Source: Oscillospiraceae bacterium (lineage in GTDB: Bacteria > Bacillota > Clostridia > Oscillospirales > Acutalibacteraceae). From it: a stretch of DNA of 43,732 nt. Positions 19,670-30,624 of the stretch are shown piece after piece. Under the pieces are notes generated by a model, which did not search any database, was not told the origin of the DNA, and saw nothing but the letters and a program-made list of their open reading frames with translations. Numbering within the stretch: position 1 is the first letter of the stretch; every line of letters starts with the position of its first letter. The stretch covers positions 1 through 43,732 of the forward strand of contig SVOQ01000022.1 of the NCBI GenBank assembly GCA_015066345.1. Reading direction: 5' to 3'. Made by a program: the position numbers and the translations under genes.

Positions 19670-19744
19670 AGGGATGTAGCCAAGCGGTAAGGCAACGGAC
19701 TTTGACTCCGTCATGCGTGAGTTCGAATCTCGCCATCCCTGCCA
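19670..19744 (+). tRNA. tRNA-Gln (TTG)
   Basis: The acceptor stem is AGGGATG/CATCCCT with a weak first A-T pair, as usual for tRNA-Gln. The anticodon loop CTTTGAC gives TTG. The T arm has GAGTTCGAATCTC. Discriminator G, CCA encoded. Last of the operon. Confidence 0.96.
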
Positions 19745-19774
19745 GAAAAAAGCAGCCGAAAGGCTGCTTTTTTC
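19745..19774 (+). terminator. terminator of the tRNA operon
   Basis: AGCAGCC (19751-19757) and GGCTGCT (19762-19768) pair around a GAAA tetraloop, followed by TTTTTC. Confidence 0.92.
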
Positions 19775-19775
19775 A

Positions 19776-19945
19776 ATGAAATTTGCCCTTACGGCCAAGT
19801 GAAATAGCTTCGCTGTGAAATATTTACTTCGTAAATGTGAAATATTCGCTTACGCGAATGTGGGCAAATTTTATTTCACATTTTGTCAACGACAAAATAT
19901 TTCATAATCCGAAGGATTATTTCACATTGCGTAGCAATATTTCAT
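19776..19945. repeat. head-to-head array of variable mini-hairpins joined by a constant ATTTCAC heptamer
   Basis: There are seven short perfect or near-perfect hairpins, each with a different stem, joined by the same heptamer. Left half: GTGAAAT at 19799, 19815 and 19837, plus a partial TGAAAT at 19777. Right half: ATTTCA(C) at 19873, 19899, 19919 and 19939. Read in heptamer orientation (- strand for the left, + for the right), most loops are GNA or GTAA. Examples are AGC-GAA-GCT (19806-19814), ATTTAC-GAA-GTAAAT (19822-19836), ATTCGC-GTAA-GCGAAT (19844-19859), ATAATCC-GAA-GGATTAT (19904-19920) and ATTGC-GTA-GCAAT (19926-19938). ATTTTGTC-AAC-GACAAAAT (19880-19898) is the exception. An outer arm pair AAATTTGCCC (19779-19788) and GGGCAAATTT (19862-19871) encloses the left half. 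The array fills the gap between the tRNA terminator and the next promoter. Confidence 0.85.
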
Positions 19946-19977
19946 TAATGACCAACTACTTTTTTATTAATCGCACA

Positions 19978-20039: not shown

Positions 20040-20525
20040 ATGGTCTGCCCCAAACCGAACAAGCTCGTTTCTAAAATTGATACATATCTTAACTGTGCTG
20101 AGGTTTTTGCATACAGAAGCACCTGTTTGAAACGTAAATATGGTGCGGTAATTGTAAAAGATGACGTTGTTGTGTCAACGGGCTATAACGGTTCACCCCG
20201 TGGATTTGAGAACTGTTGTGAAATAGGTTACTGTCCGAGAATTGAGCAAAATATGCACCAAGGTGAGGGTTACGGAATATGCAGAGCTGTTCACGCAGAG
20301 ATGAACGCTTTGCTCAATTGCTCACGTCAACAGACGTTGGGTGCAGATTTATATCTTACAGGTATTAATCCAAGCGACAACTCAGTATATAAATCAAAAC
20401 CCTGCCCCGTATGTGCAAGAAACATAATTCAGGCTGGTATAAGAAACGTTTATCTAAGGGTTGGTGAGGGTCCCGATAATTATATCGTAATCCCCGCAAA
20501 CGAATTACAATGGCTACAAAAATAA
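20040..20525 (+). CDS. dCMP/cytidine deaminase family protein (ComEB-like)
   Basis: This 161-residue zinc-dependent deaminase resembles deoxycytidylate deaminase, which makes dUMP for dTMP synthesis. The zinc and proton-shuttle residues are in VHAEMNA (H85, E87) and PCPVCARNI (C122, C125). The segment GYNGSPRGFENC near residues 48-59 is the substrate loop of the dCMP deaminase/ComEB group. Extra cysteines in CCEIGYCPRIEQ may form the second zinc site seen in this group. The ATG follows AAAGGAG. The gene is monocistronic, with its own promoter and terminator. ComEB is the Bacillus name; no competence genes are near. Confidence 0.9.
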   Translation: MVCPKPNKLVSKIDTYLNCAEVFAYRSTCLKRKYGAVIVKDDVVVSTGYNGSPRGFENCCEIGYCPRIEQNMHQGEGYGICRAVHAEMNALLNCSRQQTLGADLYLTGINPSDNSVYKSKPCPVCARNIIQAGIRNVYLRVGEGPDNYIVIPANELQWLQK

Positions 20526-27673: not shown

Positions 27674-29989
27674 TTATTTGTAGCTTACTTCTATTTCGCC
27701 ATCATTGGCATTAACAGAAATTTCATTAATAAGTGCACCCGCATTATCAATAAGAATATTAGCAACCTTATCTTCAACGCATTTACGAATAGTACGTCTG
27801 ATGTCACGTGCACCTCTGCCACCGTCTTCGGACTTCTCGGCTATTATCTCGCATACTCCGTCACCAACAACAAGGTCAATACCTTTATCTTTAAGGGGTT
27901 GGCGGAATTCTTCAATAAGAATAGCGGCAATTTTAACGAGTTCCTCTTTACCGAGGGTGTTGAAAACAACAATCTCATCAACACGGCCTAAGAATTCGGG
28001 TCTTAAGAATTCTTTAAGGGCTTTCATCGCCTTATCTTTGGACGCGGTATTCTTATCGCGGTTAAATCCAAGTGCATTCTCAGTAATATGACTACCTGCA
28101 TTGGACGTCATAATAATAACCGTGTTTTCGAAACTAACCGTTCTACCCTGTGCATCGTTGGTTTTACCCTCATCAAGAATCTGAAGAAGGATATTCATAA
28201 CGTCGGGATGTGCTTTTTCAATTTCATCAAAAAGTACAACGGAATAAGGTTTTCTTCTTACTTTCTCAGTAAGCTGACCTGCTTCATCGTAACCCACATA
28301 TCCGGGAGGTGAACCAATAAGCCTTGAAACACTGTGTTTCTCCATAAACTCGGACATATCAAGTCTGATAAGGGTTTCAGGTGTTTCAAAAAGTTCATTT
28401 GCAAGTTGTTTTACAAGTTCTGTTTTACCTACACCCGTAGGACCAACAAAAATGAATGATGCGGGTTTTCTAACTGCAGAAATTTGAACTCGGCTACGTC
28501 TTATAGCGGCGGCAAGAACCTCAACGGCTTCGTCCTGACCGATAATTCTTGCTTTTAACTTATCCGCAAGGTTAGAAAGTTTACGCATATCATTCTCAAT
28601 GATTTTAGATGTAGGAATACCTGTCCAAAGATTAATTACCTTAGCAACATCTTCTTCTGTAACATCGTTATCATCGGCTTTGACTTTTACGGTTGCTACT
28701 TCCTTTTCAATTGCCATTTTTTCGGCTTTGAGCATTGAAATTGCCTCATAATCAGGACCGTTATCGTCAGTTACATTAAGTAATTCTTCCTCTTGTTCTG
28801 CAAGTTCTTCTAACTTCTTGGTAAGTTTCTGATAATCACTTATAGCAACATTTCTGAGGTTTGCACAAGTACAAGCCTCGTCGAGAAGGTCAATAGCCTT
28901 ATCAGGTAAAAATCTGTCGTTAATATATCTTTCGGAAAGCAAAACTGCTCTGTACACAAGGGCGTCAGAAATTTTAACCTTATGGAAATCCTCGTAGTAT
29001 TCCTTAATACCCAAAAGCATCTTATAACAGTCGGCAACCGAAGGTTCTTCGACCTTTACAGGTTGGAAACGTCTTTCGAGAGCCGCATCCTTTTCAATAT
29101 GCTTACGGTACTCATTAAATGTAGTAGCACCGATAACCTGAATCTGTCCTCTTGAAAGAGCGGGTTTAAGAATATTAGCGGCATTCATTGAGCCTTCTGC
29201 ATCACCCGTACCAACAAGATTATGAACCTCGTCAATAAAGAGGATAATATTACCCTCGGCTTTAACTTCGTCCACAAGACCTTTAATTCGGCTTTCAAAC
29301 TGACCGCGGAACTGTGTACCCGCAACAAGGGATGTAAGGTCAAGAAGATGAATTTCTTTGTCCGCAATACGTGCGGGAACATCGCCCGAGGCAATTTTCA
29401 AAGCAAGTCCTTCTGCGATAGCGGTTTTACCAACACCGGGTTCACCGATAAGGCAGGGGTTATTCTTCGTTCTACGGCAAAGAATCTGAGTAACACGATA
29501 GATCTCGGTTTCCCTACCTATAATACGGTCAATTTTACCCTCACGGGCTTTTGCGGTTAAATCGGTACAGTAAGAGCCAAGGAATTTACGTTTTGTTTTA
29601 CGTTTTTTCTTTTTCTTCTTACTGTCCTTATTATCTTCTTCATCGTCGGAAACATCATCTTCTGCATCATCAGTTTCAGCATTTTCGCCCTTAGGTATAG
29701 CATTATTATTGCCACCGAAAAGATTCTGCATAAAGGGCATTGTACCTGCTCCGCCCAATTGAAAATCATCCATATTATCCATAATATCACCGAATTGTTC
29801 GCTAACTGCGTCTATATCCTCTTCGGTGATGCCCATATTCTGCATCATCTGCTTAATGGGACCGATATTCATTTCTGAAGCACACTTAAGGCAAAAGCCT
29901 TCCTGTGTGGTTTTTTCGCCCTCGACCTTTGAAACAAATATAACTGCGGGGCGTTTTTTGCATTTACTGCATAACATTTTATTATTCAT
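27674..29989 (-). CDS. ClpE-like AAA+ unfoldase (Clp protease ATP-binding subunit)
   Basis: This HSP100 protein should unfold substrates for ClpP. It is 771 residues. The N-terminus has a zinc finger, CSKCKKRP with a partner CLKC about 22 residues later, as in ClpE, and lacks the double Clp_N repeat of ClpC. A charged linker follows: an acidic part ([14 protein letters not shown]) directly joined to a basic part ([12 protein letters not shown]). Two AAA modules have GEPGVGKT with ILFIDEVH and GPTGVGKT with [11 protein letters not shown], separated by a short middle domain. The ATG follows GGGAG. ClpE genes are often under CtsR; no CtsR box was seen because the gene lies inside an operon, 20 bases after pgsA. 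Confidence 0.9.
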
Positions 29990-30009
29990 TTAATACTCCC
30001 GGGACTAAC

Positions 30010-30624
30010 TTATTTTTTAGAAAATTTTTCTTTGAACTGACGGAATGTGTCAGGTAAATAACTGATAAATGCAACAATTGTTAGTATTGCCGAAATAGCT
30101 ACAAGTATCATCATAACAACGGGTGGTAATGTGAAAGCAACATCTTTAAGTAAACCTACTTCAGGTCCGAAAGCTACGATTACCAACATAATTGCATAGA
30201 AAGCGAATGTTGCAACTTTACCGAAGATTTCTGCAGCAGAAGGACGGAGATTTAAAAGAAGCATTATTCCGCCAAAAACAACCATTATTAACTCTTTAAC
30301 GATAAACACAAGGAAAATCCAGCTAAAAGCTTTAAGTGTAGCATCAGTTGCTTTATTAAAGGAAATGAAAAGCAATACAGCAAGAGTTATCTGAGTTAAT
30401 TTATCTGCAACAGGGTCAAGAACTTTACCCAACGCACTAACCTGATTAAATTTACGAGCAATTTTACCGTCAAGGAAATCGGATATACCCGAAAGAGCAA
30501 GCATTACAATTGCCCATACAGGTTCGCCTGTCATAAAGAAATACGCAAATGCGGGGATTATAAGTATTCTTATAACGCTTAATAAATTGGGGATGGTTAA
30601 ACAACCTTCAAATAAACCTTTCAT
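30010..30624 (-). CDS. pgsA: CDP-diacylglycerol-glycerol-3-phosphate 3-phosphatidyltransferase
   Basis: PgsA makes phosphatidylglycerol phosphate, the first committed step to phosphatidylglycerol. The 204-residue membrane protein has the CDP-alcohol phosphotransferase signature DFLDGKIAR, then GKVLDPVADK, giving D-x2-DG-x2-AR-x8-G-x3-D-x3-D. Several membrane helices surround it. The start MKGLFEGCLTIPNLLSVIRI is typical. It lies ten bases after cvpA within the - strand operon. Confidence 0.94.
   Translation of the reverse strand: MKGLFEGCLTIPNLLSVIRILIIPAFAYFFMTGEPVWAIVMLALSGISDFLDGKIARKFNQVSALGKVLDPVADKLTQITLAVLLFISFNKATDATLKAFSWIFLVFIVKELIMVVFGGIMLLLNLRPSAAEIFGKVATFAFYAIMLVIVAFGPEVGLLKDVAFTLPPVVMMILVAISAILTIVAFISYLPDTFRQFKEKFSKK

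Follow-up and report, generated by a model that had tools for sequence, protein, structure and literature searches.

Dispersed inverted hairpins with a chromosomally encoded partner protein are known from the REP/BIME sequences, which carry a GTAG tetranucleotide at the hairpin foot and whose partner is the Y1 protein RAYT. Gut-1 (RF01706) is held in Rfam as an RNA family. Its entry in Weinberg et al. 2010 (PMC2864571) lists it from the human gut only, among the motifs most likely to be expressed noncoding RNAs. The intervening sequence of 23S rRNA is described in PMC4990558 as a selfish element for which mobility is proposed; the passages of that paper on the encoded protein, S23p, report tandem heptamers upstream of its gene and a homopentameric structure, and they assign the protein no function. 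Heptamer repeats, TAACTGA among them, occur in Beggiatoaceae and cyanobacteria, and their origin is left unexplained in the sections of PMC4679880 devoted to them; a term search of the accessible text of that paper for 'S23' or 'helix bundle' gave no hit. The S23 family (PF05635) resembles Avd of the diversity-generating retroelements in both sequence and structure, according to the relevant part of PMC10053308. The present analysis suggests that arrays of heptamers and hairpins placed directly before genes for this one small four-helix protein represent an unrecognised kind of bacterial mobile DNA.

The window, by which we mean the whole stretch of 43,732 nucleotides that was analysed, contains an array of this type at 19776-19945. 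It lies directly 3' of a tRNA-Gln (ttg) gene (19670..19744, +; ARAGORN and Rfam), the last of four tRNA genes, and its left end is abutted by the host terminator H0 (19745..19774, +), a perfect palindrome. The array is intergenic and outside any 23S rRNA gene; the dCMP/cytidine deaminase-family host gene downstream (20040..20525, +; Pfam PF00383, 7.9e-17) is mentioned for context only. Seven hairpins and eight heptamer copies, inverted about the centre, are arranged in the order L1 H1 L2 H2 L3 H3 L4 H4 - centre - L5 H5 L6 H6 L7 H7 L8. The LEFT half-array (19776..19859, +) is built of (G/A)TGAAAT heptamers, namely L1 (19776-19782, ATGAAAT) and the three GTGAAAT copies L2 (19799-19805), L3 (19815-19821) and L4 (19837-19843), each followed by a hairpin (H1, 19783-19798; H2, 19806-19814; H3, 19822-19836; H4, 19844-19859). 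The RIGHT half-array (19873..19945, -) is inverted and has the ATTTCA(C/T) heptamers L5 (19873-19879, ATTTCAC), L6 (19899-19905, ATTTCAT), L7 (19919-19925, ATTTCAC) and L8 (19939-19945, ATTTCAT), separated by the hairpins H5 (19880-19898), H6 (19906-19918) and H7 (19926-19938). In the centre between the two halves (19860..19872, +), GGGCAAATTT and the 5' arm of H1 are complementary, which allows a long-range stem around H2-H4; the same pairing of the centre with the H1 arm is found in family D (see below) and, by eye, in family B.

The original prediction, made from the letters of this DNA alone, had placed a seven-hairpin head-to-head array at these positions, and the array is present as described. 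The plan of a heptamer followed by a palindrome stands as well, although the palindromes measure 9-19 nt rather than 5-19 nt and H1 contains a mismatch. The heptamer, given as a constant ATTTCAC, is so in most of its eight copies, three being the variant ATTTCAT/ATGAAAT. The loops are of GNA type on the heptamer strand as claimed, but they are GAA, GTA or GTAA in six of the seven hairpins and not in five, H5 having AAC (read by eye on the ATTTCAC strand). The centre at 19860-19872, with its complementarity to H1, had gone unnoticed. The further suggestion that the array is probably not mRNA agrees with where this copy lies. A linker-plus-hairpin detector scored four units in two 300-bp windows over the array and at most one in the contig's other 433, and none of 1000 dinucleotide shuffles gave more than one unit. 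DNA folding of 19745-19960, terminator included, yielded z = -10.4. The pattern ATTTCAC-N(4-30)-GTGAAAT had no match, a result without weight because the halves follow each other the other way round in that pattern.

The surroundings of this array differ somewhat among relatives. The terminator stem at 19745-19774 is wholly different in G013 (L040) while its A6/T6 frame is kept, as though it varied in the manner of the array hairpins. In G016 (L039), G013 (L040) and G017 (L042/L061), a separate insert of ~120-190 bp lies between tRNA-Gln and the terminator; it ends with a copy of the tRNA-Gln 3' end and is missing from the window, and similar-looking pieces adjoin tRNA genes in L010 and L019.

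Both halves pass the Rfam gathering score of 50 for Gut-1, the LEFT one at 19774-19848 (+) with 63.6 bits and the RIGHT one at 19894-19967 (-) with 52.8 bits, and the window has no further Gut-1 match at gathering score. The array and the Gut-1 RNA are therefore, by these scores, of the same sequence family. They differ in that the Rfam entry models an sRNA whose match spans about half of one element, whereas the same sequence is here the end module of an S23 element, and the Gut-1 type, which is present in named genomes, is only one of several heptamer families found in this analysis. Gut-1 is also not limited to the human gut, since it scores above gathering in Ruminococcus bromii and in genomes titled as coming from goat, deer and other animal guts; among 60 genomes of the bacterial family (family genomes hereafter) it is over the cut-off in 19. 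A dispersed DNA-hairpin element had been one of the readings offered for the locus, and such arrays are indeed numerous in this genome and its relatives. The hairpin cluster is one copy of a dispersed genetic element whose only catalogue entry to date is the orphan Rfam RNA Gut-1.

A search of the whole genome gave 25 Gut-1 matches at E up to 10, seven of them over the cut-off, and the arrays of this genome comprise the heptamer families A (GTGAAAT), B (GTGATAT), C (GTGAAGT) and D (GCGATAT). Several of the related arrays adjoin a small ORF, which a Pfam search identified as PF05635 (S23, "23S rRNA-intervening sequence protein"). There are 12 matches to PF05635 in the genome, of which nine intact genes were analysed, and a hairpin double array lies directly upstream of seven of these nine (L026, L028, L029, L030, L031, L033 and L034), with the two array orientations in reverse order in L028, L030 and L031. 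Plain heptamer repeats precede the S23 gene of L027. In L032 only a large inverted repeat is found upstream, and the sequence behind S23 resembles that before the Y1_Tnp fragment L329, so an insertion sequence probably adjoins this locus. A further PF05635 gene, with an internal stop, lies between GAATTACGAATTACGCATT-type repeats at C36:5160-5469 (L035, L036). S23 is a four-helix bundle and pentameric where solved; its solved relatives 2rld (E 3e-23) and 2gsc (E 0.64, not significant by sequence) have five chains each. A PADLOC defence-system search with two S23 proteins returned no match.

The contig of the window (C31) has none of the 12 PF05635 matches, which makes the window copy a gene-less form. 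It follows the plan of the S23 arrays, with two inverted heptamer-hairpin arrays and a complementary centre, and has no S23 gene downstream; its best match elsewhere in the genome is an S23-bearing copy on C34 (93% identity over 204 bases). It is short and gene-less, has inverted ends and occurs in dispersed copies, as MITEs do.

The linkage of arrays to S23 genes is also seen in other Clostridia. Among 88 S23 loci, taken from the best 80 of 566 in Clostridia records together with the nine of this genome, 42 have three or more linker-hairpin units in the 450 bp before the gene and 46 have fewer than three detected units. Three or more were found in 4 of 351 control windows from the same loci, in one of 87 downstream regions and in none of 264 shuffles; one of the 89 upstream regions (4 bp) and two downstream regions (under 200 bp) were dropped from these counts. 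The heptamer itself occurs at least four times upstream, strands summed, at 95 of 113 S23 loci compared with 4 of 339 shuffles, in a set from which 10 of 123 loci were left out for want of a tblastn hit or a start codon, for a protein below 90 aa or for less than 180 bp upstream. As in the window, the GTGA-type half comes first at 73 of the 85 loci whose heptamer could be labelled, while the order is reversed at eight and only one orientation is seen at four. An Rfam scan of 20 chosen loci (18 Clostridia S23 loci, mostly of GTGAAAT types, and two phage-labelled contigs) placed Gut-1, at or above gathering, 5' of S23 and on its strand in 14, including that of Ruminococcus bromii (L068); L029 has one more Gut-1 match upstream on the other strand and one downstream. 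The phage-labelled contigs L284 and L285, from human faecal samples, carry array-plus-S23 elements, one of which stands behind a tRNA gene.

The 60 family genomes were scanned for Gut-1 with stricter filters, at which weak matches are lost; positions refer to the matches listed. Gut-1 is present in 20 of the 23 genomes with S23 and in 4 of the 37 without (Fisher 3.3e-9), and the numbers of Gut-1 and S23 matches are correlated (Spearman 0.81). The exceptions are G029, G035 and G036 (one Gut-1 each) and G074 (nine), which have no S23 match, and G030, G048 and G061, which have S23 and no Gut-1 match. In the literature covered, mostly outside subscription journals and preprints, we found no statement tying S23 genes to heptamer or Gut-1 arrays.

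The heptamer follows the lineage of the S23 protein. For a Mantel test, 85 of the 113 loci were labelled with heptamers within the pattern [GAT][CT]GA[AT][AGT][TCA], and protein distance correlated with heptamer distance at r = 0.63 (0 of 2000 permutations). In 48 of the 85 cases, an S23 protein and its closest relative under 85% identity have a common heptamer, where permutation gave a mean of 6.8 and a maximum of 18. A correlation between heptamer and protein is expected from physical linkage alone. More telling is the joint change of all eight heptamers in family D, in which every heptamer of L249 and L250 reads TCGATAT; GCGATAT is the form in most other copies, and L248 and L251 have a mixed set.

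The elements also vary in presence and absence between relatives. The L034 site (family D) is full, with the arrangement LEFT-RIGHT-S23-LEFT, in G000, G013, G016 and G020 among the matches listed, has one LEFT only in G011, and is empty in G008, G015, G009 and G005, in which 25-29 bp lie between the flanks; G017 and G018 have another insert there, and G006 looks empty from match coordinates alone. At the window site the element is present in G013 and G016 and not in G017. A gain or loss of single units between strains, for which the original prediction had proposed to look, is not seen among the three orthologous copies (window, G016 and G013). Gene-less copies are numerous in family D in G020 and in family C in G000, among the matches listed. 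In G020, family D copies at L237, L239, L241, L242 and neighbouring loci stand beside another repeat, GGCAAATGGGAAATGGCAAGTGGCAAAT, AGAGGCTTCGC, which suggests nested elements.

The insertion sites are of a recurrent kind. Of 41 copies from families A, C and D, 27 have a hairpin immediately at their left end, against 10% of shuffles, and none of 20 family D copies has one at the right end. A tRNA or tmRNA gene ends at most 500 bp upstream, on the S23 strand, at 46 of 73 S23 loci (median 255 bp) and downstream at none of the 73, seven of 80 loci with 500 bp or less of upstream sequence having been left out. Because the 46 nearest genes are of 21 kinds of tRNA/tmRNA, this distribution speaks for many separate insertions and not for one inherited site. 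By eye there is no general target-site duplication, with one case at L022 (G000 C18, match 29978-30062), where a long array made up of many short units lies at the end of a gene and is flanked by a ~18-bp direct repeat of the end of the preceding gene, a sequence that is single-copy in relatives.

These arrays might be read as Rfam reads Gut-1, that is, as a functional noncoding RNA, transcribed and acting through RNA hairpins. Scores above gathering agree with that reading, and so do compensated stem changes: H7, ATTGC..GCAAT in the window, is ATTGT..ACAAT in the orthologous G016 copy, and H2 of family D has several different paired forms among copies, bearing out the expectation that structure is kept while stems change. 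The loops, however, speak against it. GNA or GNNA loops on the ATTTCAC strand were predicted to exceed chance, and they do, making up 153 of 291 hairpins upstream of the 85 S23 genes (70 of 361 units without a symmetric stem left out) and 45 of 760 background hairpins from the same loci, of which 63 of 760 have the mirror-image loop. Split by strand, the loop type makes up 79 of 129 array hairpins with an S23-sense GTGA-type heptamer and 74 of 162 with that heptamer on the opposite strand, with one mirror-image loop in each group, and the closing pair is C-G in 246 of the 291. Since these loops lie on the ATTTCAC strand in both halves, their polarity follows the heptamer and not the transcript, and since the halves are inverted, a single transcript would have GNA loops from one half and TNC loops from the other. 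The C-GNA-G hairpin is known for its exceptional stability in single-stranded DNA, which is lower in RNA. Further points against an RNA function are that the two halves match Gut-1 on opposite strands, that G.T mismatches do not clearly outnumber A.C ones (25 vs 16 on the S23-sense strand; 28 vs 13 on the ATTTCAC strand, a weak strand test), and that copies vary in presence and reach 16 to 43 Gut-1 matches each in seven of the 60 family genomes. We consider this reading quite unlikely. It is highly improbable that the arrays arose without a partner protein, as a mutational by-product of slipped replication and quasipalindrome correction. Template-switch correction could give stems that are mostly paired (Watson-Crick at 1487 of 1660 positions, with 25 G.T, 16 A.C and 132 other on the S23-sense strand) yet differ among copies, but the shared plan, the linkage to one gene family, the lineage-following heptamers and the target preference would be left unexplained. 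The same two processes may be how the stems stay paired.

A regulatory reading takes the arrays as an operator or 5' leader through which S23 regulates itself, with S23-less copies as decoys or remnants. The arrays do lie directly upstream of the gene, the last ATTTCAC-type heptamer being a median 53 nt from the S23 start codon (81 loci), and L034 and L270 leave little room for a promoter. The many gene-less copies, the amplification of families C and D in particular genomes and the preference for tRNA terminators find no explanation in it, and we hold it to be unlikely as the main role; as a second role, self-regulation is compatible with the S23 mobile element that we prefer. REP/BIME-type palindromes mobilised by a Y1 (RAYT) transposase resemble the arrays in outline, as inverted hairpin pairs dispersed between genes and associated with a chromosomal partner protein, and this genome has two Y1_Tnp matches. 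A partner protein had indeed been anticipated, with a Y1 (HUH) transposase as the suggestion; S23, the likely partner, tracks the arrays and Y1 does not, Gut-1 being present in 13 of 27 genomes with Y1_Tnp and in 11 of 33 without (p = 0.30). Moreover, 11 of the 24 Gut-1 genomes have no Y1_Tnp match, the detector found 0 or 1 unit in the flanks of the two Y1 loci (for L329, in one flank), and the hairpin feet here are GTGAAAT/ATTTCAC-type heptamers instead of GTAG, with stems that differ among copies. Mobilisation by RAYT is accordingly very unlikely.

The diversity-generating retroelements differ from the present system in that this genome has no RVT_1 match at E <= 0.001, and copying by a reverse transcriptase of its own genome was rejected on this ground. 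RVT_1 is found in 12 of the 60 family genomes and, by hand count, in 6 of the 24 with Gut-1.

Repeats also accompany S23 beyond Clostridia. On plasmids of cyanobacteria, Spirochaetota, Bacteroidota, Chloroflexota and a Monoglobus, the gene has short tandem repeats on either side, one set inverted relative to the other. In a set of 24 loci, drawn from 22 of 34 plasmid records and from two phage contigs, a mean of 22.1 inverted 7-mers is common to the two 150-bp flanks, compared with 2.8 for 45 control genes (p = 9e-9), and 22 of the 24 reach at least four matches as against 15 of the 45 controls. Among lags 5-9, self-match peaks at lag 7 in 19 of the upstream and 20 of the downstream flanks; for L296 and L298 the peak is at lag 8, and the flanks of L298 have no inverted 7-mer in common. 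The effect is weaker in a sample of the phylum (20 of 28 loci used, eight having no tblastn hit; the partial L354 was not entered). Four matches are reached there by 16 of 20 loci and by 14 of 45 controls (p = 4.6e-5), lag 7 comes first in 11 and 12 flanks, and only 8 of 20 loci exceed all of their 60 shuffles. Gene ends in this sample are off in L338 (internal stop) and, by eye, in L336, L339 and L342, whose flanks are partly coding. Hairpin units are rare there, one of the 20 loci having two or more. Several plasmid S23 genes (L280, L282, L288, L297, L278, L283, L293 and L294) stand in defence-type gene sets, in positions between hsdS and hsdR, between cas2 and cas1, before cas1, between a helicase and a methylase, or before Swt1/HEPN.

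Two of the systems described above are met again in these loci. At L340, L344 and L358 (the latter two identical and from one genome), S23 lies inside 23S rRNA between inverted heptamer-like repeats. The 23S rRNA intervening sequences and the arrays thus have the protein family S23p in common; the window copy differs from them in having no S23 gene, in lying outside rRNA and in the alternation of its heptamers with hairpins. The repeats of Beggiatoaceae and cyanobacteria, as far as the sections of PMC4679880 on them go, are likewise short, tandem and intergenic, and cyanobacterial plasmid S23 genes are flanked by such arrays.

We propose that the segment 19776-19945 is a gene-less (MITE-like) copy of a small S23 mobile element, and that the element probably works as follows. 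Its two arrays stand head to head, each an alternation of one heptamer with hairpins, of which about half are of the C-GNA-G or C-GNNA-G type; in the full form, the arrays run on into the S23 gene, which is sometimes followed by a second LEFT array. S23 would recognise the heptamer of its own lineage, single-stranded between stable hairpins with the GNA loop on the same strand, and would bring the element, or S23-less copies that have kept the heptamer, to the hairpins ending tRNA/tmRNA transcription units, where host enzymes would copy or insert it. The stems would be free to vary provided that pairing holds, whereas the heptamers would be kept alike because one protein must read all of them, and gene-less copies would be served in trans. 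What the comparisons show is the architecture, the linkage to S23 in position, distribution and lineage, the variation in presence and the preference for sites behind hairpins and tRNA genes; the binding by S23, the action on single strands and the copying route are proposed steps. Host enzymes are credited with the strand exchange, since the element shows no enzyme of its own and the two candidates tested, Y1 and reverse transcriptase, do not track it. We know of no catalytic motif in S23, and as no enzyme is known in the element, one from outside it is needed, which counts against this explanation. The core unit may be RIGHT-S23-LEFT, which would match the plain heptamer type elsewhere; the scarcity of GTGA-type heptamers downstream of S23 (14 of 83 loci) counts against such a core.

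More tentatively, and as a proposal that we rate a little short of an even call, Gut-1, the intervening sequences of 23S rRNA and at least some of the orphan heptamer repeats of bacteria could form one superfamily of mobile elements with no recognised recombinase. In it, the S23 ring would read a heptamer specific to its lineage, presented in tandem or as a single strand between C-GNA-G hairpins, and would guide insertion 3' of hairpins, tRNA terminators for example, with host enzymes only. With the S23 element, an orphan Rfam family gains a partner gene, and the annotation of such loci as sRNAs would be corrected. The widespread, Avd-like S23/four-helix-bundle protein would be given a concrete binding hypothesis, and the rRNA intervening sequences would be tied to intergenic elements through the same repeat arrangement. 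The elements may, finally, be a source of many heptamer repeats that have so far gone unexplained.
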